Origin: Cloeon dipterum
Lineage: Eukaryota; Arthropoda; Insecta; Ephemeroptera; Baetidae
Direction of reading: 5' to 3'
Assembly: GCF_949628265.1 (NCBI RefSeq)
Contig: NC_088790.1
Coordinates: forward strand, 5,646,545 to 5,710,544
DNA: 64,000 nt
The translations under genes and the position numbers were made by a program. The notes under the pieces were generated by a model, which was given only the letters and a program-made list of their open reading frames with translations, searched no databases and was not told where the DNA came from. Shown here piece by piece: positions 1,234 through 60,150 of the stretch (positions are counted from its first letter, which is position 1; each line of letters begins with the position of its first letter).

Positions 1234-4200
1234 CCGGTCGGCTGCCTGCCGGACGTGGCGCCGCTGGAGGAGCACCACCCGCACCACCACAACTGTCCGG
1301 TCAATGAGCTACTGCCTCCACTGCCGCCGCCGTCGCGATGCAACGGCCGGGCAGTGCCTGTCCGAGAAATGCTGCTTCCTTCGAGTGCTCAAGCCAGTTT
1401 CGGCACCATTGCCAGTTTGGGCCCTCTCAACGTTAGGGAATCTTTTAGTTCAACCAGTAGCAAATCAGACTCAAAAACTTTGTGTGAGTATCATGACTTG
1501 TTTTTTTATTTTCAATCGGGATCGATAAAATTATCGACCGAAATCAAATAATTGCTTGTCATGGGTGTATCATTACCCTTTACACCACCATCAGTTTTTT
1601 CCTACTTTAGCATGCAATTTAGACCTCAGAATTAATTCATTACTACCAATTATTGAATCAGGAAATTAAAAAATGATTGTAAACTATTTTAAATTAAATT
1701 GTTTAGTCATTACCACTTTATAGAACTGTGAATTTTAGAGGAATTCAATGAATTCAAAATAAAGTTTAATTTTTGTTACTGATCAAACGCATTATTTTGG
1801 GTTGGAAAATCCTATGTTTTCGTCTCAATACGTGCATTAAATGCCTTATTTCCGTACAAAGGTACATCAACTCCGTTAATGCACACTCCGCCACAGCCCT
1901 CTCGAAAAACCACTAGCCCTCGGGGGTGTCGAACAACAAACAGAATGGGGGATGAAGAGGAATGGTCGGCATTTGAAAAAGGCAATTAGTTGCCGCGGCG
2001 GCCGAGGCAAAACAAGCGAGTGCACACAAAGCACGCTACTCATATTTGTCCTTTTGAGAGTCATTTGACCATCGTAGACGAACATTTGCTAGAGAAGAGA
2101 GCGAGAACACAAAGAATGGCCGCCTCCGCAGCATTGTTTGCTTTCTAATTGCATTCTTCTGCTGGCGAGAGAGGAGACTTTAATCTTTGCATTTCATCCT
2201 CGACATCACAGTGGCATTACTCTTCTGGCAAGCCAGGCAATTTCTCATTAGGAATTAGAAACGGAAGGCAAGAAGAAAAATAATATAATAAACAAGCAGT
2301 CCGCACAAAACAGAGCATCTTCACTCCGCGCACGACAAAACGACTCGAGCCCTAACAGACTTCGTTATAATGAGATACATTTTTCACCAGGCCGCAAAAG
2401 ATAACTTAATTCATTCACGCAAGGATAATTTTGTAAAAATCATCACAATTACTTTTTCGGTTTCCGAAAATTGTAATTATAACTGAAATTATATTTGGTG
2501 GGAAATATTTGTTTCGGAACCTTTATATTAGCATAACTCAAGCGTTTTTGAGATATTTAAACAGTGTTTAAAACCGCCTAAACGGACAAAACAGTAATCG
2601 GCTTAAAATCCGCTTGAAAATAAACAAATATTTTTTCTTCGGATTTGGGAGTAGCTCATTTTTATTTTTGTTGGGTGTTTCTGCCCAAAATTGATCAGTT
2701 TTATTTTCAAAATTAAAAATCCCGAATTTACCAAGATTTTAGCTGTATAGCATTCATAGCTGCTGAATTATAAAGCCAAACTCAAACATAAATTGTTTAT
2801 TTATATTTGAATTTTTTCAAATTATAGAAACATTTAGCCGATCCAGATTAAATTTTAATTTAATCTTTAATTTTTCACTTAAATTTGTTGCTCTATTTCG
2901 AGAATTGATTGCTTCTAACTCGAAACCCACGAATAACAAACATTTTAATCTAATTTCCAACTCTGTAGGAAGTAAGAAAAATCATTATTTATTTTCTGAT
3001 TAACAAGAGTGCTTTCCTTGTGAGCATAACGTAATTTTCATATTTATCTCTGCATTCTTGTGCAGGTGGCTTTCGTCATTGGTGCTTACTGCTGACCGCG
3101 GTGCTGATCGCGTGCGCGCTGGGCGCGGGCCTCGGGGTGCCGCTGGTGATGCGCTCGGTGAAGGGTGCGTCGAGCGGCGAGCAACGCATGGACATAGTGC
3201 GGCGCATCCTCAAGGAGACGCCGCTCATCGACGGCCACAACGACTTTCCGTGGAACCTGCGCAGCTTCCTGCACAACAGTTTCAAGGAGCTTGACTTTGC
3301 CTCCGACCTGCGCAACATCGCACCCTGGTCCAACACCAATTGGTCGCACACTGACCTGCCGCGCATGAGAAGTGGCCTTATGGGAGCTCAGGTGATCAAT
3401 TTAAATAATAAAATTCAATTCATGCAAGAAATTGGATGTATTTTGATTCGACTAAATATTTAAAAATCGATTAAGAAAACCGGATAAAATTTGGTTAATC
3501 TTATGCCAACTTAGTCCTCCGGCCCGTGAAATTTCACGCATCAAAACTTCAAGATGTCGTGTTTCTTCTCTGCTATTTCCGTTATTCAATCCAAATTTCT
3601 AACTCGAGTTGTTTTATGTGTCAGTCGAGAGCCATTTCAGAAGGACAAGTTGGACGCTATTTTGTTGTGCCAGCGGTGACCACTGGGGTTTTTTCCTTTC
3701 AAAACATAACAAATAATTTAATAAGGCTGTGTATGCCACAACAGGGGACACGTGTTCTGTATATTTTACTGCGTTGATCGCGAGTTATGACCGGTTGTTA
3801 AATTCAACACCTCTCGCAATTTTATTACCGTGGCCTTTGATATGATTATATGTGTGTGTGTAATCTTTGTCGAAACAGCCATAAAATAGCGGCCACTCGC
3901 GGGTATTGACGGAAGAAAAATTTATGCCAGTCGTAAAAGGGGCGAATTGAAATTGGATGAGGAACCAGCAACCTTTTCCCTGTATTGGAGCCACGTACAT
4001 ATATATAGTTTTTGGAAATTGGATATAAAGTATTAAATTATGTCAAAAAATTAATAACTGATAACGATACAAAATTTGATTCTACTGCTCGAGAATTTTA
4101 GTTTACTTTTAAAGTATGGAATATTTCATTAGCTTTTTAAACATATTTTTATTAATTTTACAGCATTTAAAATTAACAAAGCCCAAGGGCAAAAGTTTGC

Positions 4201-7200
4201 GGGAAAATTTAACCCATTTGTCTTTCAACCAAACTTCATCTATATATAGCCAAATCAGTATTTTAGATCGAATTTGAAAGTTGTGGTCATTTATTTAGTT
4301 GCATAAATCGCAAAAATCATCGGTTTGAAAATTTCCACCCAATTCACATCAAGGAAGCCTATAGGAATTGAATAACTTTACTTAAATCCAAAGCATTAAA
4401 CCTCTAGAGCTTCATTATTGCTGGAAATAAATTTTTAACTTCATTAAGTGGGCGAATTTCATAGCAAAATTTATGATAGAAGCTTCAAATTCCGGAAACA
4501 CTTTTAGGCCCATCCCTTGCGCACACTAGGCCTTAGCCCGTGGAATATAATCAAAGTGCAACCTGCCGCCTGTTTGCCTATTCGATACGAGAGAGCATCT
4601 CTGGAGAGGCGGAGCGGAATTTGTGCATAATTCAAACGACAGGCTCTGGATTTAATTCTCTCCGGTCGTGCATTAATACGCGCGCGGATTTGCAAATCCG
4701 GGGGCCGTAAATATCAGGGCGAGTGCAGCTGCGGTCGGGACAACCGACAGCACACGCAGGAGATTAATTCTGCGCCGGGCCGAGTACAACAACACGTGTC
4801 TAGCTGTTTGCGTTGCTAACCAGGGCAATTACTTTCAGTTTTGGTCTGCGTACGTCCCCTGCGGTGCCCGGCATTTGAACGCAGTGCAGATCGCCTTGGA
4901 GCAGATCGACGTGATCAAAAGGCTGGCCGACCTCTACCCCTCCTACCTCCAACTGGTCACCACTGCCAAAGGTCAGCCGGCGCAAGGAAGCACGTCCGCC
5001 CACTCAATTATTCACCCGCTAATTTTTCCCTGCCAACCCCAGGCCCGACGTGTGTGTCTGTGTGTGTTTATTAGGCAAAAGTTGCTTTATATCGCGCTCG
5101 TCCGCCGTAAATTTCGCCAAACTCGTGCGTGGCATGCGGAAAAAATATTTATTTATTCATTTTGGACCGATCCCTTGCTTATGTTTGCCGCTCATGCCGC
5201 TTTCCTGGTACGCAATTTGCTTGGCAGCCTTGTCCTGCAGGTTGCATACTTCAAATCTGGCAGGAGCCGTGGTAAAAAATTTGAAAAACAGTCAATTTTT
5301 TCTTTTATTATTAAAAAAATGTAAACGAAAACGATATTACTGGGGCTCTGTCAGATTTTCTACCCATTTTTATTCAAATTAGTTGTAAATCACGCTTACA
5401 AATATTCTTGGTATGGTCTAATTAATTTCTTTCAAGGGGTGAAAAAGAGAGATGCGATTGTTTTAATTGAATTTGAGCGATTCTATTCGTCCGTCAAATG
5501 CAAATAATGAATTTTTCTATATTTTTAAGGGGTTGAAAATGGAATGAAGCGCCTTTTTACCACTTCAGCTATCAAGGAGAGGTCATGTCGAGTCAAAAAA
5601 TGTGCAGTTTTTGATCTGACACTTAGAAGCCGAGATTAAGTGAAAATCGTGTTTATTTTTCTTTCAGGGGCCTTCGTAATAATAATAAAAAGTTTTCCAA
5701 CTAAATCTAAGGTTCTAGGAGTCGAATTTACAAAATTTGGAAACCGTGTTCGACTTGTATTCACACCCTGTAATGAACTGAAGTTGTGAAAAACACCCAA
5801 CCCTGTTCCGCAATGAGATGCGAACAATAAACAATTGCAGAATTTAACGTTTTTTAGTATGCAAAAAGGGTGTTGAAGGGGTGACACCCTAAGACTGCCT
5901 TGGCTTTCTAGGGGAGGTCAAGACTAGTCTAGCGGTGTGCGCTCTTTGAAAATCCAATAAAAGTCGAGAAAAGAATCGTCTAAATTCACAGCCCTTTTTT
6001 CCTATTTTTTGAATTCAAACTTCGTTTCTATAGAGCTTGGACCAATTTTCAAAGTAAGTCCTAATTTCCAAAATCAAGTCTATTCAAACCATTTTTACTG
6101 CAATATCGAAAACTTATTGGAAAATTAACATGTTGCAGAAATCGAAGAGGTGCACCGCGGCGGGAGGATTGCCAGCCTGATCGGGGTGGAGGGTGGCCAC
6201 GCAATGGGCAACAGCCTGGCCGTGCTGCGCATGTTCTACGACCTGGGCGCGCGCTACCTGACGCTGACGCACGCGTGCAATACGCCGTGGGCCGGCTGCT
6301 CGCAGAGCAAGACAGGCGACGACGGCAGCAACATGGGAGCGCCGGGCGAGGAATTCGGACTGACCGAATTCGGCAAGGCGGTGGTCCGCGAGATGAACCG
6401 GCTCGGCATGATCGTCGACCTGAGCCACGCCTCGGTCAAGACGATGCGCGACGCCCTCAACGCCACGCAGGCGCCTCTCATTTTCTCGCACTCCTCGGCC
6501 AGGGCGCTGTGCAACTCCACCAGGAATGTGCCTGACGACGTGCTCAAACTCGTGGTCAGTCTTTACAGCCGCATTTTGACAGAATTTGAAAATAGTGTGA
6601 AAGCACAGGTCTTTACAGTAGAGCCGGTCACAGAAAAAAGGAACACACTGTATATCTGGCGAGACAAGAAAAGGTTTATCAGGAACAGGAAGAAAATAGG
6701 ATTTTTTCAATGCCTATATTTCTGAAATATCTTACTTTATGTGAGAACCCAAAATCGAACTCGTCAAAGGGTATCGATTGAGACCTGTTGAAACCAGGCT
6801 TCCAAAAACATTGTTCGGAAATGTCTTTTCAACTTATAAAATTAATAAATCGGCTCCGACTGCGCTCCACCAAAGTTCAAAATGCGCCCCGTAAAATTCT
6901 GCGTCGGATAGGCTAGTTCTACGCCCCCGTACATCATTGAATGCAGGAGGTTGAAAATCCCTTTACTGTTTAGCTAATATTGTCAAGGTACTACCCTGAA
7001 AATTTCATTTCGGGAGCGGACAATGTCTGGGGTCTTTGAAGGAACCAACGCTAAGCCTCGCGCAAAATGTCACCATTTTACTGCGAGTCAAAACAATTTC
7101 TGGTATTAGTATAAGTTAGAAGAACTCAAAAGAGGCCAATAGAATTTATTTCAGATTTTTCAAGTTCATTTTAGTTAGAGAGCTGCTAAATCAACTTTTG

Positions 7201-14304: not shown

Positions 14305-15465
14305 GGCGAATTTATGCAAAATTTCTGCTCTCGGTAGATAGAGCAAAAAGTTAAATGCTGACAACACTTATCTTTAAAATTGTCGGAGTTATTCACAGGC
14401 ACAGATTACTGTTTGCGACTGCGAGATTCGAGATTGAGGGGCTCGTTTCCCGCGTAGATCGCAGCGCAGCACCTGATTCCTTTAAAGTTCCCGGCGTGGC
14501 GCACGCCCGACGCGCCCCTAACGGTAGACAAGCAAACAAGCATGAGCACGGAGAATAAGAGGTGTGGCTGCACCACAACAGGATAAAGCGTAAAGCGGTG
14601 CTTGCAGCAGTAAAAAACAGCTGAAAACGGTGAAATGAATGTCAGTTTATGCGCAGGCAGCACGCAGGGAAGAAGGGGGTGGCGCCAGTTGAAACTTGAA
14701 ACCTCTTTTGTTTTGTCACGTCGTCACGTGGTAGACAACACAACAAAAACCCAGGGTGAGAGGTGAGAGTGGGAAGAGCAAGAGTACAACCAGACTAGCA
14801 GATCAAGGGTGATCATTAAAACATTAAAAGCATTACATACTTAAACAAGACCGGACGCGTACGGACTGTCACACACGGGACAGTGGGACACTCGTCACTC
14901 GTTTTGTCTTCAGTCTGTAAAGAATCAACAGTATCTAAAATGTATGTATGTATGCACATATATCTACCGTATCTGCATAACTTAACAACTTCTGATTCCT
15001 CATTCTTCTCAATGACATTAACGGCAACCCTTTATAAAGGCATTAATTTTTCGACTTTTTTATGCTTACATGCTCTCCATTGTATCACATCCACGTTGTT
15101 ATATGTGTATTGTATTATGATAGTTCACAAATGCATGCAATGCGTTTTTATTAATTTTTAAATCATATTTTTGTTCATTACTCATACTCGCTCCTACTTC
15201 TCTTGATAAATGTGAGGAAAGGTATGTAGTATGTATATAAACCACATTTATAACAAAAATATATAATTCAGGATTTCAAGTATTCATAAATTAATTAATT
15301 TGCATGTTGGAAAATAATGACACTGAATGTTTGCTGAGTTACATATATTATATATGTATCTACATAGTTTTTATATCCATTTTGCAAACTTTGCCACTTA
15401 CAATAAATTTACATACTCTCAAAATAAATTTATGTATGATAAATTAATTTTTTCTAGTTTTCAAG
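14305..15465. promoter_or_regulatory. Head-to-head promoter interval between UNG and SNAPC3
   Basis: About 1.16 kb separates the two start codons. The UNG-proximal part (about 14430-14760) is GC-richer and has an E-box CACGTG at 14725-14730. The SNAPC3-proximal part is AT-rich with ATGTATGT-type runs. A TTTTTTCTAG just before the SNAPC3 ATG could be the acceptor of a 5'UTR intron. Promoter function is inferred from gene layout only. Confidence 0.45.
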
Positions 15466-18400
15466 ATGAGCGAAGAAACAGCAGCACCTGAAGAGAAAAA
15501 AGGAGGAGCATCGATCAAGCATATTGATTTCAGTAACAAAACAGTTGACCTCTACCAATATTTCATTGAATATTCAAGTTCCATCTTAAATACGTTTGGC
15601 TTCAAATTGCCATTTGATAGCAAGCCAAAGAAACTTTCTGAGATCATTGGCATTACTGGTCCAGGCCTGGAGTACAACTTCCAAGCATATGATAAACTCA
15701 TGGAGTAAAGTTTTAAATTTCTTGTAATTATTTTGCTTATTGACTAAATTTTGTCCAGTGCTGCCTTGCTTGATGTTGATGGAGAAATTCCAACCCTGAA
15801 GATCAACATGAAAGGAACTCAACAACAACCAAGTAATGCTTACTAATCATCTTGTAAAGATCCTGTTACTTCATTGATTTGCTTAAAGGAACATTCCAAA
15901 AGCCTCAGCAAGAAGATATTGAAAACCTCAAGTCTTTGAAGTGGGCTGAAACTCATGTGAAAGAAAAATACTACACCACTCAATACCACGAAAAGCTTTG
16001 GGTAAATCGCAAACTTAAACCATTTAATGCAAAGAAATTTTGTCTCAATTACCTAAGATCAAAAGCAACCCCACAACAAGGATGGAACTCAATGTGCATC
16101 CGTTCGGAGACTACCTCATTCACGTCAAGGTGCACAAGCCTTGCAAACACCATCCACAGGTTAAAAAGAAGTAAGGAATTCCTTGATAACCCTATTCTAG
16201 CTGATGTATCTATTTGCAGTTTGAAGTTGTCTGTGCAAGAAGACATCCTGGTCCTCTCCAGCCAGGCCCTGACTGTTTTGAAAGACACTATTTGCTGTCC
16301 TAATGACTACTCAACGTGTGGAGACAATACTGACACACCAAGCAGAAACGTGCCAAAATTTGCAAAGGTTTGACATGATATTATCTTTCATTTGTTTTTG
16401 TGCTAAACAATTTTGCAGGATCTCTTTCCTGGTGGCTTCTTCTTCATCGAAGACACCTTCTACAATGACCTCAGAAAGCCTTGTACTCCTGACTACAGCC
16501 GAGTGATCAGAGAGTGGGCTGCGAGGAACCCCAAATATCCAAAGACTAATTTCTCCGTTTCCAACATGGCTGCAGTCGCCTTCAGAGATCTCAAGCTGAA
16601 AATTGGATATCCTTATCTGTTCAAACACTTGGGATCCTGTGAGCACATCATCACCTTCGTCAATGCAAAGTGAGCTGCTTGTGATTTTACTAATTTTAGA
16701 GAACTTTCAAGGAAACTCTTTGGATTTGATTTAGTTTTTAGCGAAACCATTGTATTCTTGTAGCCTTTCCTAATTTGAACCATAATATTAATGGGGGCAT
16801 ATTTATACAGCAGATGATGGTTTAAAGGAAAGGCCCAATTATTTATCAAACAAAACATCATATTATAAAATTTAGGTTTGTAGATAGCATGTAATGTTAC
16901 AAATTGATTGGCGAGTCATTTTTGATCATTTTTAAATCTATATAAAGAGTTAGTTGATAGTATTTTAGTATTTTGTTTTCTCTGCAACAAAATTTTAGCA
17001 ACAACATCTGGTGGTTGGTTAAAAAAAGTTTGAAAATTTTCTCTTTGACTGTTAAAGAGCTATTTGCTAATTTCTTGGCATGGTTAATAATCTCAGGATC
17101 TCTTAGTAAAAATCAATCAATTTGTCTTGTCAATTTGAGTCTACAACATCACCACGATTGAATGAAATTTTGAAGCATAAGTATTTCTACCATCAAAGCT
17201 TTATGCCTCGCAAAATCCATCAAATCAGAATTTTTCCCTGGTGGCATCTCTTAAGGTTTATCGACGATCCCTGATTAAGAAGTCTCTATGAATTGTGTTT
17301 TGAAGATTATTAAGCACTGCTGATCCTGCTGAGGACTGTGGGGCCAAAAAAGCTGCTGCACAGAACGAGAACGTGTCATTTAATTTTTCCTCATATTAAT
17401 TTCACAGAGGTCTCAGATTGAGATAAAAGGCTTAGCCGAATTTTTTGCCTAGTGGCGCGGCTGACAATGTTTTAAATGTGAAGTTTGGTAGTGCTTAACG
17501 CCTCAAAGAGCCGGAAGACATTTTTTCTCTTCTGCACTAATTTTTGACACTTTTCACCGGCAGCTGGCGCTTAGATTCACGGCGGCTGGCGTGTGTATTT
17601 CTTTCATTGTCTTGAAAGTATTTGAAAGTTCACAAGATGAAAGGGAAATTTTTCATAATATGCTTAATCATTTTAGTTTTAGGCGAAATTATTCATTTAA
17701 TGTAGTCTATCCAATGAGTTAACAACTTTTTCCCATTTTTTGTCTTATCAGGATGTCATTCTTAGACTAAACCATTTTTTATTTGATAGTAAAGTGTGAA
17801 AAGTACTATTAAATGAGGAGTCCAACCAAGGAAGTCAAATAGCAAATATATGAATCTTCCTAATAAATAATGGTCTTATTCTGCTCTGCATTTTTTGTCA
17901 ACATAATTTGAATAGGAAATTTCGTCGGCTTTCAGAATATGTGTAGTTTCTGCTCTGCCTAGCAAAACTAGAGACTACTTGACTATTTTTTAAATTGTCA
18001 AATCTAAAAGAAATCCACTACAGTATGTGGTAAATTTCAGGCTTCAGGAATATAATAGTTTCGCCAATATCAGTTGCTATTATGAAGATCAAGTAAATTA
18101 CAATCAAAAACTCCCAAGAAAAAAAAAATAAAATAGCGTGTTCCTGTTTGTACTTGTATATCCCAATTAGAAAAATCAATATCGATAATCTTGATATTTT
18201 CTTAATTTTCAGATTAGTTAATAGAGGTGACGACTTGAACTCCAAGCACTATCCAATGAGGAGAATCCCTATGGGATACCGGGCAAATAGGTTGTGCATC
18301 ATGTGCGGATTCTTCAATGCTGTGTAAAAACAAATTTTTTGAAGTTAAAATGAATTAATTAACAAAATTGTAACCTCCTAGTTGGGTGACTGTCGGCAAC

Positions 18401-18661
18401 GAGTTTGTCCCTCACGACCCTGCTTTCTTCTGCAACCACTGCTTCCACTCCTACAACTTTGTAGATGGCAAGAGGATCACCAAATTCACCACCTATCCCC
18501 TGATTGACAGCACCAAGCACCCAATGAAGCCTGAAGAAAAAATTATTTTTAAGCCTGTAGCACCTGCTGGACAAGCTCACCCACTGCTCTACACCCCCAA
18601 AAATGTGCACAGAGAGCTGGTTGTCAGCAACGATTCCTGTTACCCATCTACCAGCCAATGA
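15466..18661 (+). CDS. SNAPC3: snRNA-activating protein complex subunit 3 (SNAP50)
   Basis: Subunit of SNAPc, which binds the proximal sequence element of snRNA promoters and drives Pol II and Pol III snRNA transcription in the nucleus. Exons: 15466-15704, 15759-15832, 15889-16001, 16058-16170, 16220-16367, 16419-16669, 18213-18323, 18382-18661; phases are continuous, 1329 nt, 442 residues (human about 411). The conserved C-terminal half is clear: VLSSQALTVLKDTICC, FFFIEDTFYND, KLKIGYPYLFKHLGSCEHII, then a zinc-binding pair CIMC (Cys341/344) and CNHC (Cys367/370) around WVTVGNEFVPHDPAFF, ending YPLID as in the family. About 48 extra residues follow that usual end. The N-terminal half is not conserved by eye. 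Intron 6 is 1.5 kb; the other introns are about 50-60 nt. The start ATG follows TTTTCAAG and precedes an acidic Lys/Glu-rich leader. Confidence 0.93.
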
Positions 18662-18966: not shown

Positions 18967-21900
18967 ATGGCCGAACCTGTGCTGCAGCAGGTTCGCAATC
19001 AAGCGGCCCTGTTGGTGCTTCTCGTCTCCTCGCTTTTCTGGTCGACCACCTCGGCAATCCGCGCTAATCCGGTTCACCGGCCCCTCGAGCAGGACCAGGG
19101 GTCAAAGTGCGAGGTGCAGAGCTACACCCTGCGGAGCGACGTCCACCTCAGGTACTCGACTTCGATGCTGCGTATTCAGGTGGCTAACCCTGAACGGAGC
19201 TGGCGCACTTTGGAGTGCACCCTGAACGTCGTGATTCCAGAAACGGCGTTTCTATCCGGCGTCCTAGCGTAATTTCGTTAATTTGACTGTTGGGTTTATT
19301 TTTAATCAAATAAATTTAACAGAGAAATCGGAGATAAAGTGATACAAACTAAGGTTATCGAAAGAAACGATGCGAATTCAAGCCACGAAGACGAGGATGA
19401 TGGCACTAACGATCCATTTGAGTAAGGGTTGTATTTTAACGAAACGTCCCATGTTTCAACTAATTCTTCAGGGTGCCAAGAGATTCAAAGCTAATTAGAA
19501 TCGGAGTATCCTTGAAGGCTGAAGAGGAAGCGATTTTATTCATTTCCTACGAGCAGTTAATCACAAGAAAATTGGGCATTTATGAAATTGTCCTTAATCT
19601 ACATCCAGGCCAGGTAAATCTATGAGAGGCTCACCTTTTATAATTAAGCGAAAATAAAATTGTTAGACGCAAGTGTTTCTACGAGAGAATTTTGATATTT
19701 TCTTCAATACTATAATTTTTGTTTAAATACCATCCTGATTTTTTGGTATATTTGGTTTACTGTTGCTATATAAAGATGTCGAAATAAACAAGTTCCGCCG
19801 GAAAAAAATACATTTTGAAATTAAATCAAACCAATAAACAGAGAGTAGAGTGGTTATACAAACAAATTTAACAATATCAATCGCTCTTGGAGGTACCCTA
19901 ACGCCAGGATTTGATTTTAAGTAGATGTTTCTTACATATCGTTGAATAATGGAATTCTTATATATATATGCACGTTAAATAGGCGTCCTCCTTGAATTGG
20001 AGCCCAGTGTGCTACCTAAACGTGTATGGAGAAAATTTTGACCCCAATCCAGCACTGCGAGAGGCTCGTTTCTCCACATTTTCCATCGATTATTGTACGG
20101 GAAAGATGCATTAAGTTTTCCCCTTAGTTAGTTAGACTTGGTTATTTCATCGACATACCAAAAAATCAGGATGGTGCTGGAACAAAAATAAAAAATATAT
20201 ACCGCTTAACATATCAAATATCCCTCGCTATTTGTTTCAATAGATTGTGCAAGAGCTAAGGGTAGACGCATATATTCACGAATCGAGGGAATTGTCTGTT
20301 TTGCGTGTTCTTGGAATTAGATCTGGACAAGAAATTGATCCTCTGGAGGGTCAAAGTGGTAAATCGATATTTTTACCATTTTCTTTTTCATAATATCTCT
20401 GACCGCTTATTTTTTTAGAATTTCCCTTATCAAAAGTAATCAGACGATCTGAAAATGAGGCTCACATAATCTTCTCGCCGAGTAGAAAGCAACAAATGCA
20501 ACTTGCCAATTCCAAAGCGTGGCTGTCCAACAGTGACAATGGTCTTTCAGGACAATTGGTTGTCCAATTTGAGCTAAGCAGACCGAAAGATGGAGAAATC
20601 ATGGTAATTTGTTCACTGTAAATTGAAAAATAAAAATAATCTTTTTCTAGTTGAAAGACGGCTTTTTCGCGCACCACTACGCACCGACCGCGCTGAGCGT
20701 TCTTCCGAAACACGTGGTTTTCGTCCTAGACCTGAGCAGCTCGATGGCTGGAAGAAGAATCTCGCAGCTCAAGTTAGCAATGGCCGCAATTTTGGACGAG
20801 CTGAAAACCGACGACTACTTCTCAATTGTCCAGTTCAACAGTTTCAAATCAGTTATAATATTAACTGGAGCTCAGCTCGGCGAATTAATGAATGATTATT
20901 CCCATTTAAGGTGTGGAGACCGTTCAGCAGGGAAAAGAGAAGGCCAAAAAGCAATCGGCGGCCGCGGCAATTTGGACAGAGCAATTACTCTAATCAGCAG
21001 GATCGCATATCCAGCAGCAGCGACGGCGGCAGGCGCGTTCAAAAGCAGCCGGCGGACCTGGAAGGCGGCGGCCGCGTTATTCCAGCAAAACCTCATTACA
21101 TCGCCAAGGCGAAAAGATATATCAAACGCATGAAAGCCTCCGGAGGTTTGTATAATGCGCGCGTTTTAAACTAATTCTAATGGACTTCTCGTTAGGCACC
21201 AATATTCAAAAGGCACTGACAAAGGCCATCGAAATAGCGCATTCCTCCGACGTGCCCCTTGCTTTGGTCGTCTTTTTGACCGACGGCGACTCCACGGTTG
21301 GCGAAACAAAGGCCAGTTATATTCTGAAAATCGCACGGGAAGCAAATCGGAAGGAAAAGTGCGGGAGCTACCAAGAAACCATAGACGAGCCGTGCGATAG
21401 TAAGATTTTACCAAAAAGATGACATTTTTTCGTAAAGTAAAAAAGTTTTTGTTAGTTTTTTTGTTCTTTTATACAGTTTCAATTCTTATTTCTTGACAAG
21501 TCAGAAAATTTTCAGAATAAAATACTCTTTCTTAATTGAAATTTTCACAAAATAAAATACAAATTAAATAGTCCTCAGTTTTTTTATTACAAAAAATAGC
21601 AACAAAATTGTCATATTCACTTGTTAATATTGGGTAAATTTGGCTATTTTCTTTGAATTTCCAATTGGTGTCATATTTATTCGTAGGAAGGTTATTTCCG
21701 GAAATTTGATATTACAAAATGCCAATTTCTGCTCAAATGACAAATTGCAAGTCATATATATGAGTCTTTGATCCTCAAGTAGTTGAATAATATTTGACCT
21801 ATTTGAAGTGAATTTTTTCGTTTATATGTAAGGCATGCACTGTCGCTATACACTCCTGAAAGAACCTTCCACTTTCCGATTTATTATTTTTTTAAACTAT

Positions 21901-24893
21901 ATAAATAAAGTTGATATGGCATTTAAATTCATCACGAAGAAAGGAACCCGTTAACACTTTTCAAGAAGATATGAAATTGTAATCTCAACTTCCAGATATC
22001 ACCACTAAACACGTCCCAATCTACAGTCTTGCATTTGGAGAGGAAGCAAATATTTACTTTTTGCGCAGACTTTCTGCAGAAAATTTTGGTACAGCTCGCA
22101 GAATTTACGACGCAGAGGATGCGGCAATTCAGTTGCAAGAAGTATACGCAGAGCTCGCCGCACCAGTCCAAGCCAACTGCCTTTTCCAATATCCAGAGAA
22201 TATGGTGGGTCAAAAATAATTCGACGCTTTTAATTTAATCAAATTAATTTTCGGCAGGTTGATCCCGAATGGGTAACACAACACAAATTTGCTGCTGCTT
22301 TCTTGGGCTCCGAGATCGTGGTTGCTGGACGACTGCTTCCAGAAGATGAAAAAAGCGATGGCGCTGACGAGGGTAACGGTGACTTTTGGGGCGAAGTGAA
22401 AGGAGAACAGGCCACCGGGGAAGTGTCTACCGTGCACCTGCCTGACTCAGAGATCGAGTTTTACCCCAACACCAAATTTAATCCCAACCTGTCGCATCTG
22501 TGGGCTTACTTGACCATTTACCAGCTTCTCGTGGGGTCTGCTGCGCGTGATTCGCGCGAAGAAGCAACACAAATTGCACTTGAAGTGAGGAGATAAATTT
22601 ATTTTGCTATACCTACATGACGGCAAGCAAACTTTAACAAATTTACACAAGAAATCACTCTTTACTAGAAGATATCGTAACGACATTTTTCCAACTATAA
22701 AACTATAAATTTTTACGGTTTTAACGGGACACTTTGAGACTTCATTATCTCATGTCCCCGTGGAGCAATATTAAAAAAGGATGTGCTTTGGATTCCTCTT
22801 GACAGGTCCAATCGAACTAATACCGAACTTGATGACCTCGGTCAAGATCAAAAGTCAATAATGTTAATTTAAGTTTCTAATTAAAATTCTGAACGTGTGT
22901 TTTAGATTTTGAAATATTGAAAATGTGCTTAGAAGTTTCCCCATAATATGTGTAAACTTGTGCGAAATTTTCAGAAGGGCTTTCTCTTTAAAATTTGAGT
23001 AATTGCTTTTCGAAGCCCGAAAACACGTGTTTCGTTTCTTGCAAATATCGTTAACACTAAATTTTGGGTTCCAATCATCAGAATTGCAAAAATTGCACAC
23101 TGCCAGACTTTTCTTGACCTCCTCTAGCCAGCTGAAGGGTTGCTTGACCTCCTATAAATTTTTTTCTTCCAATCTGTGACATTTTCGTAAAAAAAAGGAA
23201 ATTGTGAGTTTTTTTTTTAAATCTCCATGAAATTTTCAGTATTCTTTCGTAACTGCAACCACTACACTAGAACCACACTTCGAGGGTGACCGAAATGACG
23301 GTATCAGATTTTATATTATTGTATATATGAAATAATTAATAAAAAAACCGTTATTTCTCACAGTGGCCACATCAGTTTTGCGAGTACACCTTCCCGCTGA
23401 GCAAGAAATCGGCCACATCATGGATGACGACAACGCAAGCAGCACGGACGTGTGTTCCGAGGGTGGCGAGGGCGAGTACTGGTTCCCTCTGCAGCAGGCG
23501 TTCATCCCCTGTGGCGAGCGGAAAGTTACACATCACGTGCCCAACTCGTCGCAGCAGCGTAGCTCGGAAAACTTCGGCCGCAACCAAATTCACGAGCCCA
23601 CCAACGCGATGGAAGACGAGGACGAACAGGATTTTGAAGAGGACAAAAGTGAAGTTGGTATGAAGACATGGTACGTACACGTGCGAGTGGTTTGATAATT
23701 TAGGCAATGGTTTGCGCAGTACAAAAGTACCAGCTGGTTGATTTGGAGTCTCTTACCTGGTTGAAAGATGTGCGATACGGCCCCCGATACTTGGTTCTAC
23801 CCAAAGGAAGGGGAGGCGAAAATCAGCTCTTTTCACTTGGACTGAATGAGGTTATTTAATTTAACTATATTGTTTTTAATTATTTAAATAATAATTATAA
23901 TTTTATTGCAGTCTAACGAGGCTTATTCCCCTTGTTTGTCACCTCTGAAAGAACCCAGCCACTGCCGGCATTTGCATTTTTGTTCCATTACCGAGTTGAA
24001 AGAAGACTTCTACGAATTCCTCCGCTTCTTCTGCTCCATTAACCAGTGAGTATCACACGATTTATATGTATAAATGGCAGTGGGTATGCAATTTGTACTG
24101 CGCTTGAGCACAGACGGTTGCCTACCTTGGTAAGCGGGCATGATTTTGGAAGATTTTGGAAGATTTATTTATTTAGTGACGCTGAAACAAATTAAGAAAA
24201 ATTCCTCGCAAGAAAAGTCTTGATTTTTTTGTAGCCTTTACAGATGTGAACTAAATACAGCGTTTTAACGATTCCAGCAACCTTTTCGATTTAAAGAAAT
24301 GGGCCTAAATTTCCTATTATAAGTTTTCGCTCAATTCAGCTGAAATTCGGTATTTTGACACTGTTTAACAAGACAAATCGATTGCTGGCTCGTTGTTGAC
24401 GTTCTGGAAAAAATTAGAAATTTCCCATGACTCCCATGACAGTTAGTTCCAGGCATTGTAAGTTTTGTATGGTTAATCGTAGAGAAAAAACTAACCATAA
24501 TTTAAAAACCAACCACAATTTGAAAGTTGATGAAATTTGCTAGTATTTTCCCATTTAATTTTTTTGATTCATTTCCAATTTCAAAAATTGTATGTTAATT
24601 GAAAACGTAACAGTTTAAGATATTAAAAGCTTAAAATTTTTTCTGAGCGACAAAAGGAGCTTCATATAAACAGGTGTTCAGCTCAGAAATTTTTAACCAT
24701 TAGTGAGCTATTTGCAAATTCCCGGCAAGGAAAATTCCTAAAATTAAAATCAAGGGTTGAAGAGGGGATGAGTGGGGGTTACTGCGTAGTGGAGTAATGA
24801 GCTAAAATTTGTATTTACAGTTTTGCAGGAGTCTGCTGCCCGGACAGCCTGTTTCCTATTGACGAGAGCAACGTGCAGCCTTTCGATAAGTAG
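18967..24893 (+). CDS. Secreted VIT-vWA protein (inter-alpha-trypsin inhibitor heavy chain-like) with C-terminal CLIP domain
   Basis: Exons: 18967-19268, 19323-19421, 19472-19613, 20244-20358, 20419-20603, 20651-20851, 20911-21145, 21196-21399, 21996-22204, 22258-22584, 23240-23285, 23364-23657, 23720-23850, 23912-24045, 24821-24893; 2697 nt, 898 residues, phases continuous. Residues 1 to about 31 form a signal peptide (ALLVLLVSSLFW core). A VIT domain follows (about 45-200). A vWA domain begins near 302 with MIDAS DLSSS (Asp308, Ser310, Ser312) and includes GGTNI and FLTDGDST. The ITIH tail motif YSFVTATTTL is at exon 11. The last two exons give a CLIP pattern: Cys838, 848, 854, 871, 880, 881, ending GVCCPD. 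ITIH proteins bind matrix; CLIP domains are known from arthropod immune proteases. No protease domain is present. The vWA carries an unusual basic Arg/Ser-rich insert in exon 7. The role of the whole protein is unknown; extracellular matrix or haemolymph immunity is inference. Confidence 0.92.
19729..20175. mobile_element. Non-autonomous TIR element (MITE-like) in intron 3 of the ITIH-like gene
   Basis: A perfect 21-bp inverted repeat bounds it: 19729-19749 starts ACCATCCTGATTTTTTGG and 20155-20175 is its exact reverse complement. Similarity continues outside (ATTTTTGTT) and inside (GTCGA-GAAATAA-CAAGT), so the real TIRs may be longer. No coding capacity. A diverged relative lies at 8840-9345. 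The family and target-site duplication are not identified. Confidence 0.7.
22705..23130. repeat. Dispersed repeat, copy 1 (intron 10 of the ITIH-like gene)
   Basis: Shares long blocks with 30735-31150 in the same orientation: GTGCTTTGGATT then TCTTG, AATCGAAC, GGTCAAG with a following AAAAGT or AAAAGG, AATATTGAAAATGTGCTTA, and a downstream CTTTAAAATTT block, in conserved order and spacing. No coding potential seen in either copy. Confidence 0.7.
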
Positions 24894-25199: not shown

Positions 25200-25205
25200 A
25201 ATAAA
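25200..25205 (+). promoter_or_regulatory. Candidate poly(A) signal of the ITIH-CLIP gene
   Basis: AATAAA about 307 nt after the stop codon, the first clear one downstream. Confidence 0.45.
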
Positions 25206-34189: not shown

Positions 34190-34525
34190 GGCACGGTGAA
34201 GACTACTCGGCGGAGCTGAAAAATGGCGATGGCACCCTGAGCGCGAGCAAACTAATTGGAGGCGGTGGCCGGTGCGAGCGAGCACAGCACACGCGGCGAG
34301 AGAAGCGGCGGCGGCGGCGGCGGCGGCGAGATTCAAGGTGGTGGGGTCCAGCCGGCTAGGCTCAGCCCCTGAGGAACGCGTGGCTCTCGAGGGTGGGAGA
34401 AGATCTAAGCGAGCCGCCGCTTGAGTGTGTCGCGGCCGCGGTGTGTGTGCGCGCGCGAGTGTGTGACAGACAGACGGCTGCGGACAGGTGAGAACGCCAG
34501 GCGGCCGCCTCATGATTGATCGGCG
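34190..34525 (+). promoter_or_regulatory. FoxB 5' leader / proximal promoter
   Basis: Composition changes sharply from AT-rich to GC-rich about 340 bp before the FoxB ATG. The stretch includes a pure (GGC)8-type run (34305-34328) and a GTGTGTGCGCGCGCG run near 34441. No TATA box is obvious. The CpG-rich character fits a developmental-gene leader. Confidence 0.5.
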
Positions 34526-35353
34526 ATGCCGCGTCCGAGCCGAGAGTCGTACGGCGACCAGAAGCCGCCCTACTCGTACATCTCGCTGACGGCCATGGCC
34601 ATATGGAGCTCGCCGGAGAAGATGCTGCCGCTGTCCGACATCTACCGCTTCATCATGGACCGCTTCCCGTACTACCGCAAGAACACGCAGCGCTGGCAGA
34701 ATTCGCTGCGGCACAACCTGTCCTTCAACGACTGCTTCATCAAGATCCCACGGCGGCCGGACAGGCCCGGCAAGGGCGCCTACTGGGCGCTGCACCCCTC
34801 CGCGCTCGACATGTTCGAGAACGGCAGCTTCCTCCGACGCCGCAAGCGTTTCAAGCTCAAGCCCAAGGACATGGCGTCGACCGCGGTGTCACAGGTGGTG
34901 CCGCCCCCGCCGCCTCCGCCGCCCAAGACCACCCCCGGCAGCAGCTGGAAGAACAACTTCAGCATCGAGAACATTATTTCGGCATCGCCATCGCCTCCGG
35001 AGGCATCAGCGCTGCAGCCCCCGGTGGCCATGCCGCAGCCCATGCTGCCCCCGAGCTTCTTCTGCCACCAGCAGTTCCTACAGCCGCTGCTCGCCTTCCA
35101 CCCGGCCCTGATGGCCTTCTCCGCGGCCGCTGCGGCCGCCTTCTCCGCGCCGGGCATGCACATGCCGCTAAGGCCGCAGCCGCTGGCCCTGCCGCCCCCG
35201 CTCTTCGGGCACGGCATGCTGCCGTACACGCCGCCCCAGCTGCTGCCGCCCCCGCGCAGGCCGGCCGCCGCCGCCGACGAGGAGGACGCGGTCTCGTCCG
35301 CCTCGTCCGACGCCTCCCTCGGCAGCAAGTCTTTGGAGCCCGACGAGACGTGA
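34526..35353 (+). CDS. FoxB: Forkhead transcription factor, FoxB class (Drosophila fd96Ca/fd96Cb relative)
   Basis: Single-exon gene, 275 residues, ATG at 34526 in CGGCGATGCCG context, TGA at 35351-35353. The protein starts [20 protein letters not shown], the FoxB signature start, so the forkhead domain sits almost at the N-terminus (about residues 12-108). Motifs: [40 protein letters not shown] (recognition helix), [18 protein letters not shown], and [10 protein letters not shown] as in FoxB. After it come an eight-Pro run and an EH1-like Groucho-binding motif FSIENII (residues 145-151, nt 34958-34978), which FoxB proteins share. The tail is Pro/Ala/His/Met-rich with an acidic Ser-rich end. 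It is a DNA-binding developmental regulator, in insects linked to nervous system patterning. Coding GC content is far above its surroundings. Drosophila has two FoxB genes; only one is seen here. Confidence 0.96.
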
Positions 35354-57332: not shown

Positions 57333-60150
57333 TCAGGCTGGTTGTCCGAGCCCTTTTACAGAAAAAATCCGTTATATAAACTGTTTGATTGATATATATT
57401 TATTCCTATTTACCTTGCAACTCTGAAAACTCTTCAAAATCTTTATTGGTCAGTCTGTTCTTCAGTTTAGGTTCCAACTCACGGAATAACGAGCAAATTC
57501 TATTGAGAGCTGCGGCAAGTTTCTAAAATAAAAAATCATTAAATTTGTACTTGCGTCTGTTTAATTGTAACTCACCATAGCAAACAAGTTAATGTTCTCA
57601 TCAACTTCTTCAAATCCTTTACGAGGCTAGAACGTTAAATGCTTTATTATTTGGATTAGAGAGTGTAAAACTAACGCTTACTTTTATTTCTAGGTTCTCT
57701 AGAAATTTATGGGCAGCCGATTCGAGATATTTTCTTTTATTCCTGTCTTGCTTTTGAAGGGCAGTCATGGTTGTTTTCAAGACAGCAGCTTGCGCCTATA
57801 AATATTTATAAGAACCAAAGCGATTTTAGATGGAATTATTTACCCTTCTGACTGCCGTAATGGTTTTCACGTTTGCTTCAAACCGCCTGTATTTTTCATC
57901 TTTAAAGTTGAGGCCCTAAAATAAACATAAGTTAGGAATAATACTTTTAAATGTATTTTATTTTTCTCACGGCATGCTTCCTGATGGCAGAGTTGATTGC
58001 TGTTAAAATTCCGAAGTGTCCTATCTGCTCCTTATATGTTTGAGCCTCGATTCTCTTTTTTAATTTTTTCGGGATGTTTTCCTTAGTGTTTTCGTCTGCG
58101 GCTTTACTATTCGCCTCTGGCACATCTTTTTGTGTCGGCTATAAAGAGAGATGACATCAATGAAATATAAAGCGCAAATAAGTGGTATACTCACATTTTT
58201 GTCTGTCACACTAGGCTGAATCAGAAGAGATCCCATATCAACGTTGTCGTGAGCCTGTTAAAAATATTTTTAGCCAGTGAATAATTTTATATAAACTGAA
58301 CTTACCCGTGACGTTGATGGCACCGCAAGGTTTCCAGTAGAATCCTCAGTTAGCTTTGCCCTCTAAACATTTTTTATTAAATCATATTCAGAATTTACTG
58401 TTAAATATACTATCTTATTATGTATCGGATGGCTCAATGATAAAATCGACACCGGCCTCTGCAATTTTAAAATTAGTATATGTTTAAAGTGTATGCAAAA
58501 GGCATTATCTACCTTTTTTGGTTTAGTCGCCGTGTTGAGCTCTTTTGTCAGGGCTTCCAGCTGATTTTTCATACGTTTTTTAACTTCTTTTTGCTCGGCG
58601 ATTGCAAGATCCTTTAACTTCTTATATTGATCATCATTTTCATTTAACGATTGGTTCAGATCATCAACATACTGCAATAGAATACAATTAGTTTCACATG
58701 GATTTTTTTGAAAAATACTTACAGATTTATTTTCTTTCATTTCTGTGAGTTTTTCTTTTTTACTCTTGATTTCATCTTGATACTGCTTTACCCTCTGTTG
58801 ACAACCCGGGTCGTTGAATTTTTTGTAGCTTGATATTATATTCCTATTGTCTTCTATATTCTTATCAATATTTTTCTCCTCCGCCAGTAATTGTTTAAGC
58901 ACATCTTCAGCGTCGTCACTCTGTTTTTTTCTCTCCTCTTGCTCCTTCAACTGCTCTTGCTCCTTCAACTGCTCTTGCTCCTTCTTCAATTTTTCTGCAA
59001 CAGTCGAACATGCAGCCTTTATCTTCACGATTTGATGATGGCGGGTGATAGTCGCATCTTGGTCTTTTCGTTTTTTATCGATTTCGTTAAGATGATATTT
59101 GGCCTCAACATCATGTGTATGCATTTGGGCGTGCAGGTCTCGTATACGGTCTTTTATACTGCGTGGTATTTCAGCTTGGAGTTTTGGATCTTGGTTGGCT
59201 TCGTTTTGAATTATTTCTTGTAAAGGTACTCGCATTGTACCAACGGATTCTTCTTCATTTAAACTCCTGCCTGCATATTCGTCTTGCATATTGACGGAAG
59301 AATTGTGTTGTGGCGTTTCTTGAAGGAGTGGCACCCCGTCTAGATCCATCGGCTGCACGTTCTCCGTAGGTAGTGCCTCTTCAGTGTAGGGAACTGAGAC
59401 ACTGCCACAATTTACACCCACCTCAGCTAACACCGATGACCCGATGACGGAAGAATTGTGTTGTGGCGATTCTTGAAGGAGTGGCACCCCGCCTAGATCC
59501 ATCGGCTGCACGTTCTCCGTAGGTAGTGCCTCTTCAGGGTAGGGAACTGAGGCACTGCCACAATTTACACCCACATCAGCAAACAACTCTGACGTGATCC
59601 GAGCTAACTCAGAAACCTCATCGACTGAATAAACGTTGTGGGCATCATAATCCAAATTATTTGACTCCTGCAACAAAGTTTTTTAGTTATTCAAGACGTT
59701 TTTTGTTACTCAGAAATAAAGTTTACATGACAGGTGTTAAGAATAAAGTTTAATCTTAAATTTTTTTATATTAAATGAAAGGTTGCAATACCAAACAGAA
59801 AAATAGTTTAGGTGTGTAGATTTTTATCTTGATCATTAAATATTTTAACTACTCTTGAGTTTGTAACATAGATTCACAGTTATATAATATAATAGGTCTT
59901 ATATAGTACTCACAATTTACTGCACATCATCAAAGTTGGAGTTTTCGGCTTGTGACAAACCTTGGAGAGCTTCTTCTGGGATGTTTTCAAGGGTTGCATA
60001 TCCAACGCAATAAAAATCAATTACTGGTGGAAGACTCTCAGTAGGGATTGACTTAACAGCAAGCTGAGTCTCTGTTAAGGGCTGCACACCGCCACGATCA
60101 GACATCGTATCGGGACGAAGTAAAGGCTTGCCGTTGTGAAACGTCTTCAT
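57333..60150 (-). CDS. Unrecognised coiled-coil protein with tandem 51-residue repeats
   Basis: Minus-strand exons: 60150-59926 (or 59914), 59667-58723, 58671-58513, 58458-58411, 58362-58306, 58254-58195, 58138-57971, 57915-57844, 57795-57682, 57626-57576, 57522-57414, 57352-57333. Exons 2-11 join in phase 0 at every border through exon 11's start, and the stop lies 48 nt before AATAAA; about 675 residues. The product is acidic and Ser/Glu/Pro-rich at first, with two near-identical 51-residue units (NCGSxSVPYxEEALPTEN, then QPMDLxGVPLLQExPQHNSS). A long Glu/Lys/Gln coiled coil follows (KEQEQLKEQEQLKEQEERKK) and more short charged helical exons. No enzyme motif, signal peptide or membrane segment. 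The first exon is uncertain: with the best donor (GTGAGT at 59913) an in-frame TAA at 59919-59917 blocks the joined frame, while a weaker donor (GTGCAG at 59925) removes it. I do not recognise the family. Confidence 0.72.
59293..59598 (-). repeat. Two-copy 153-bp in-frame tandem repeat inside the coiled-coil gene
   Basis: GACGGAAGAATTGTGTTGTG occurs at 59293 and again at 59446, a period of 153 bp (51 codons). The two units differ at only a handful of bases, so the duplication is recent and preserves the frame. Confidence 0.9.

Follow-up and report, generated by a model that had tools for sequence, protein, structure and literature searches.

An ITIH-like gene whose predicted product ends in a diverged CLIP-like domain

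The gene described here lies in a 64-kb window (the whole stretch of DNA that was analysed) and runs from 18967 to 24893 on the forward strand. Rebuilt from splice signals, it consists of 15 exons that join into a single 903-residue open frame; 14 of the 14 introns are GT-AG, and the stop codon ends at 24893. Based on this model and on homology to ITIH4 and ITIH1, the whole coding region is predicted to specify a secreted ITIH-like protein with a CLIP-like tail. The first-pass annotation had placed the same gene here with 898 residues; the gene was recovered, that length was not. Exon 1 (18967–19268) holds the start codon, a putative signal peptide and the start of the VIT domain. The signal peptide was recognised by inspection, as a hydrophobic N-terminus at about residues 1–30 (MAEPVLQQVRNQAALLVLLVSSLFWSTTSA). 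The VIT domain covers residues 51–160 (19117–19550, introns included) and the VWA domain residues 303–545, matched in two pieces over a genomic span of 20714–22147, with a basic low-complexity insertion at residues 351–405 (20917–21081). According to the gene model, the limits of homology and the composition, exons 10–13 (22258–23850) encode the end of the ITIH core and then an acidic linker. Exon 14 (23912–24045), preceded by a phase-0 intron, encodes the first four cysteines of the CLIP-like domain. After intron 14, of 775 bases and in phase 2, exon 15 (24821–24893) adds AGVCCPD with the final two cysteines, a short tail and the stop. From Cys1 to Cys6 the CLIP-like domain, recognised with hhalign and a CLIP HMM, comprises residues 843–886 (genomic span 23933–24839). 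An AATAAA at 25200–25205 on the same strand, 307 bases past the stop, is a candidate polyadenylation signal.

Other features of the window were noted in passing. Open frames that by eye resemble SNAPC3 (snRNA-activating complex subunit 3) are present at 15448–18661, on the same strand as the ITIH-like gene and ending about 300 bases upstream of it. Frames at 3035–6722 resemble membrane dipeptidase, and a single open frame at 34520–35350 has a forkhead domain, both again judged by eye. On the reverse strand, 58366–59682 contains an open frame of 439 residues; it has coiled-coil-like sequence, and the motif VNCGSxSVPYxEEALPTENVQPMDL is repeated within it.

Pfam assigned the VIT domain of the window protein with PF08487 (E 1.5e-8; 35.2 bits, against a cut-off of 26.5 bits) and the VWA domain with PF13519 at residues 303–357 and PF00092 at 414–545 (E 5.1e-11). 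The MIDAS motifs of the VWA domain (DxSxS, T and D) are complete, as DLSSS at 308, GGTN at 426 (T428) and LTDG at 454 (D456). In a search of the PDB, human ITIH4 (9c4f) matched at E 3.6e-66 over residues 47–352 and 404–684, and ITIH1 (6fpy) at E 1.7e-46. Both alignments are split in two around the VWA insertion, a Ser/Arg-rich segment with 14 K/R and 5 D/E in 55 residues and several dibasic sites. The homology stops at residue 684 (ITIH4) or 692 (ITIH1), and judged from the sequence the first ~690 residues are an ITIH heavy chain. The acidic linker that follows (residues 691–836) has 28 D/E and 13 K/R in 146 residues.

Pfam listed no protease family for the window protein and the CLIP-like tail is its last domain, so that the description of an ITIH-like protein with no protease given by the first-pass annotation holds. 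The HMM searches which that annotation had suggested, with VIT, VWA, ITIH_C and CLIP profiles, came out in two ways: VIT and VWA were found, ITI_HC_C and CLIP were not listed. The ITI_HC_C domain and the DPHF processing and attachment motif are typical of vertebrate H1–H3. ITI_HC_C (PF06668) was not listed by Pfam for the window protein or for the two paralogues described below (L028 and L030), and when the genome was searched exon by exon no match to it at E 10 or better appeared; DPHF is present in none of these three protein models. An EPHF at residue 684 was weighed as a possible equivalent of DPHF and dismissed: it is not DPHF itself, and it lies just past the stretch aligned with TSLVVV of a paralogue. 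NCBIfam returned four models for the window protein, all far under their cut-offs, the best being a bacterial sortase-target model (E 4.2e-26).

CLIP domains are familiar as N-terminal modules of cascade proteases and of their inactive homologues. The window tail reads C843-x9-C853-x5-C859-x16-C876-x8-C885-C886 followed by PD, and the spacing C-x9-C-x5-C-x16-C-x8-CC that had been noticed in the last two exons is thus exact in the rebuilt model. When the tail was fully shuffled, this six-cysteine spacing arose in 4 of 3000 sequences. The pattern C-x4-16-C-xx[LIVF]xx-C-x12-24-C had one match in the six frames of the window, at the tail exon, and one in each paralogue locus, at the homologous exon. 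It had none in four other 9.9-kb loci, two of which hold CLIP domains whose Cys3–Cys4 gaps exceed the range of the pattern.

The genome, a 190-Mb assembly in ten contigs in which CLIP domains of arthropod type occur, was searched for relatives of the window gene. Two further ITIH-like genes, L028 and L030, were found, both on contig C2, which gives at least three such genes in this genome. The L028 model is on the reverse strand and has 14 exons and 838 residues without the signal exon; that of L030 has 16 exons and 787 residues, with its first exon unbounded. In both, VIT exceeds the Pfam cut-off (E 7.5e-31 and 5.2e-17), as does VWA. In place of the VWA insertion L028 has a Pro-rich loop; in L030 the insertion is almost absent. 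Both proteins end in a tail with six cysteines and a final CC, spaced C-x5-C-x5-C-x19-C-x12-CC in L028 and C-x13-C-x5-C-x15-C-x9-CC in L030. These tails are 27% and 30% identical to the window tail, and in an alignment of the three the six cysteines and a V before the CC are invariant, with the C-xx[LIVF]xx-C element in all three. Six cysteines in order with the last two adjacent, as in CLIP domains, are thus found in the window, L028 and L030 tails alike.

The introns of the three genes were compared on the protein alignment. All three have a phase-0 intron before the tail exon (columns 915, 922 and 915) and, separating Cys4 from the CC, another in phase 2 (columns 970, 970 and 969). Further upstream, six introns are at identical columns and phases in the three genes and two more have the same phase within seven columns; the remaining ones differ in at least one gene. 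The junctions of exons 13–15 are based on splice signals together with these matching phases in two paralogues. Since the tail is homologous and carries the same introns in three genes, it most likely predates the duplications of the ITIH-like genes, by the evidence of alignment and intron position, and is no local mis-join. By the same evidence the three genes of this genome inherited the architecture VIT-VWA-linker-CLIP-like, which is not an accident of gene prediction. The first-pass annotation could not say whether the architecture had been described; that it is common to three genes of one genome is beyond what was known to it.

Retention of the last intron was examined by eye. In the window gene the unspliced frame stops at once (24046–24049, SINQ-stop), and in L028, on the reverse strand after exon 13, it reads DK-stop; in either gene, retention would give a four-cysteine tail without the CC. 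L030 has no immediate stop in this intron.

Weak VWA matches on contig C1 (E 0.78 and E 0.097) were considered as further ITIH genes and set aside; the C1 locus with the E 0.78 match (L042) matched none of the three ITIH-like proteins at E 1 or better. A genome search with the tail by itself matched the window's own two exons alone. Viral and prokaryote contigs contained no relatives, which is what one would expect of an animal gene.

Whether the tail belongs with CLIP domains was examined with Pfam and with a profile made for this purpose. The Pfam CLIP family (PF12032) was not listed for the window tail, submitted within pieces of 903, 112 and 68 residues at a limit of E 10, although the HMMER filters drop most matches above about E 0.1 despite that limit. 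It was also not listed for the L028 tail. For the isolated L030 tail CLIP was the sole family listed (E 0.12–0.17, 13.1 bits, against a gathering score of 20 bits), and for the full-length L030 protein it was absent at E 1. Six known CLIP domains scored 21.8–52.6 bits in the same kind of test. Non-CLIP families were not listed by Pfam for any of the three tails.

The comparison profile contained eight CLIP sequences, five from this genome and three from PDB entries. Of ten genome CLIP matches listed, five were used; L036 and L040, in which the Pfam match begins only at position 10, were dropped and added back in a ten-sequence check, and L037, L038 and L041 were excluded as partial or below cut-off. 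Aligned by hhalign with this profile, the three tails reached a probability of 92.2 (E 5.8e-7, score 33.46, 49 columns). This score was reached in 0 of 200 shuffles in which the cysteines and gapped columns were kept and the 36 other columns shuffled (maximum 29.14); when all columns were shuffled the maximum in 200 was 14.92. Scored one by one against the eight-sequence CLIP HMM, the tails of L030, the window and L028 obtained 19.9, 14.4 and 5.6 bits. Out of 3000 full shuffles made for each, those reaching the observed score numbered 0 of 2975 scored for L030, 0 of 2902 for the window and 184 of 2987 for L028; with the cysteines fixed the counts were 2 of 3000, 7 of 2998 and 791 of 2999 scored, respectively. 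By these controls, a CLIP signal beyond the cysteines is present in the window and L030 tails and is not present in L028 alone. With ten CLIP sequences the three tails scored 20.0, 15.2 and 8.8 bits, in the same order.

Known CLIP domains left out of the profile in turn gave a measure of these values. The complete ones (n = 8) scored 36.5–75.1 bits, well above the tails, and the incomplete ones 18.8 and 30.2 bits, with the tails near or below these. When the PDB was searched with the tail profile, the CLIP domain of prophenoloxidase activating proteinase-2 (PAP-2, 2ikd) came second, at E 0.44; the first match, TRIM41 at E 0.21, was taken as chance. A phmmer search of the PDB with the window tail gave no match. 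CLIP disulfides are formed by C1–C5, C2–C4 and C3–C6. A Gly two residues before Cys2 is invariant in the eight CLIP sequences; it is present in one of the three tails, that of L030, and is missing in the window tail. Finally, CLIP domains stand N-terminal to a serine protease or protease homologue domain, and the window tail is C-terminal.

Since the window tail stays under the Pfam cut-off, lacks the Gly before Cys2 and does not precede a protease, it is called CLIP-like here and not a formal member of the Pfam family. Our reading is that it represents a diverged CLIP-like domain, and on the combined comparisons we are fairly confident that the window gene encodes an ITIH-like protein with a CLIP-type tail. 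The first-pass annotation had held that the six-cysteine pattern fits arthropod CLIP domains. This is supported by the profile-profile comparison with its cysteine-preserving controls and by two paralogues, and it is not supported by Pfam, which does not list CLIP for the window tail. The same annotation had named as evidence against itself a CLIP profile that fails together with a strong match to another cysteine family; the first was found, and of the second none was listed.

A CLIP domain elsewhere in the genome (L003, G000:C3:7602180-7602329; L032 near 6002) has, by eye, an apparent phase-0 intron right before its V-CC. This differs from the phase-2 intron of the ITIH tails and might bear on the origin of the fused CLIP.

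In overall plan the window protein is close to human ITIH4 and ITIH1, sharing VIT, VWA with MIDAS, the core that follows and, by eye, a putative signal peptide; it differs from them in having neither ITI_HC_C nor DPHF, in place of which it has the acidic linker and the CLIP-like tail. The CLIP domains of insect proteases, PAP-2 (2ikd, 2ike) and a Gram-positive-specific serine protease (2xxl, which we take to be Drosophila Grass), are like the window tail in having six cysteines ending in CC and Cys2-x5-Cys3 with a hydrophobic middle residue. Unlike these, the window tail is below the Pfam cut-off, is C-terminal and is followed by no protease. Among insect ITIH4-like proteins, NlITIH4 of Nilaparvata lugens is of similar length (907 residues, against 903 in the window protein), and its domains are similarly placed, with VIT at 64–175 and VWA at 304–517 against 51–160 and 303–545; the features reported for it are a signal peptide, VIT and VWA only (PMC8951764). 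Because the two proteins are of near-equal length, we predict a CLIP-like tail for NlITIH4.

A possible function is suggested by the two parts of the protein. In the sections of a review that deal with ITIH4, the protein, once cut by MASP-1/2, inhibits these proteases by keeping them in non-covalent complexes that shut out their natural substrates; the same sections call its inhibitor role in vivo uncertain (PMC10855846). The clip domain of PPAF-II is described as binding proPO via a central cleft (excerpts of PMC4553444). Insect ITIH4-like proteins occur in haemolymph (PMC8367846, PMC2944163), and in one of these ITIH is the main protein of a silkworm serum band (PMC8367846). The tagged proteins of silkworm immune-complex work include a trypsin inhibitor that is homologous to VWA and is probably an ITIH (PMC5310873), and two ITIH4-like beetle genes are tabulated among those responsive to septic injury, with values of 10.18 and 5.61 (table of PMC3541394).

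The most economical reading, we infer by analogy, is that the protein controls proteases or serves as an adaptor in haemolymph and that its CLIP-like tail directs it to its partners. The ITIH core would work like human ITIH4: a cascade protease would cut the exposed linker, and the cleaved core would then keep the protease, or a matrix partner, non-covalently. The CLIP-like tail would be the address that docks the protein on CLIP-proteases, protease homologues or prophenoloxidase complexes, and the inhibitor or adaptor would thus act at the sites at which clotting or melanisation is triggered. We give a probability of roughly 0.42 to an ITIH-like protein with a CLIP-type tail and a docked role of this kind. 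The specific version, an inhibitor with a docking tail, is more tentative. A point against it is that in the venom protein Vn50 neither domain was inhibitory when isolated (PMC4553444). The first-pass annotation proposed a link of a matrix/MIDAS module with clotting or melanisation; by analogy such a link would be reasonable.

Other functions for the tail are less probable. It may be a disulfide cap, CLIP-derived or merely CLIP-like, that only stabilises or oligomerises ITIH in a matrix or egg assembly role, unconnected with CLIP-protease cascades. This is rather unlikely, although silencing of planthopper ITIH4 reportedly delayed the ovaries and lowered egg production, survival and egg production being what was studied there and immunity being a topic of the discussion only (PMC8951764). 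The divergence of the tails and an L028 score no better than shuffles would also suit a cap; the invariant six cysteines and V before the CC, with C-xx[LIVF]xx-C in all three tails, argue against it. Alternatively, a real CLIP-type tail could make the protein a positive cofactor that acts like the non-catalytic homologues of CLIP proteases: through its VWA core it would assemble prophenoloxidase, or the protease that activates it, on matrix or clot and would promote melanisation instead of restraining it. Inactive CLIP serine protease homologues are needed for prophenoloxidase activation (passages of PMC6901238, PMC4553444), TEP1 accumulation on microbes requires SPCLIP1 (abstract-level statements of PMC3764210), and the VWA MIDAS motifs are present. 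However, in the dissection of the venom protein Vn50 a protease-like domain was needed besides the clip domain (PMC4553444); the window protein has no such domain, and the functional precedent for its core, ITIH4, is inhibitory (cited part of PMC10855846). We regard the cofactor as less probable than the cap.

Two objections concern the tail itself. It could be an unrelated small six-cysteine domain that has come to resemble CLIP, in favour of which none of the three tails reaches the Pfam CLIP cut-off, two of them lack the Gly before Cys2, and all score well under complete CLIP domains. The non-cysteine signal that survived the cysteine-fixed shuffles (0 of 200 by hhalign, 7 of 2998 for the window tail by HMM) and the fact that CLIP is the sole Pfam family listed for any tail speak against such convergence, which we judge slightly less probable again than the cofactor. 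That exons 14–15 are mis-joined or part of another transcript is very improbable: intron 14 is long at 775 bases and the exon model comes from the DNA by itself, but two paralogous genes on another contig likewise finish with the homologous pair of exons, their order and phases being the same, and exon 15 ends in a stop with AATAAA downstream.

Returning to the docked protease-control or adaptor protein, we found no description of the ITIH and CLIP domain order in the open-access papers searched, and it may be recorded elsewhere. Open-access papers that mention both inter-alpha-trypsin and the clip domain name them, in the passages retrieved, as separate proteins, and the CLIP passages retrieved for a CLIP plus von Willebrand factor architecture in arthropods concern lacewing venom proteases. 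It is somewhat unlikely, though plausible, that a whole class of ITIH proteins with a diverged C-terminal CLIP has been overlooked in arthropods, a cascade-addressed protease trap or adaptor that would be the counterpart of the vertebrate ITIH4-MASP system. If it exists, this class would be physically tied to CLIP-protease and prophenoloxidase complexes. Many insect ITIH4 records, among them those of proteins that have been knocked down or detected in haemolymph clots, would then carry the tail without annotation, since it lies below the CLIP profile cut-offs. In this genome the gap is one of annotation, with a domain retained in three paralogues and missed by a standard profile search. A CLIP domain that closes a protease-free ITIH protein would unite both systems in one chain.
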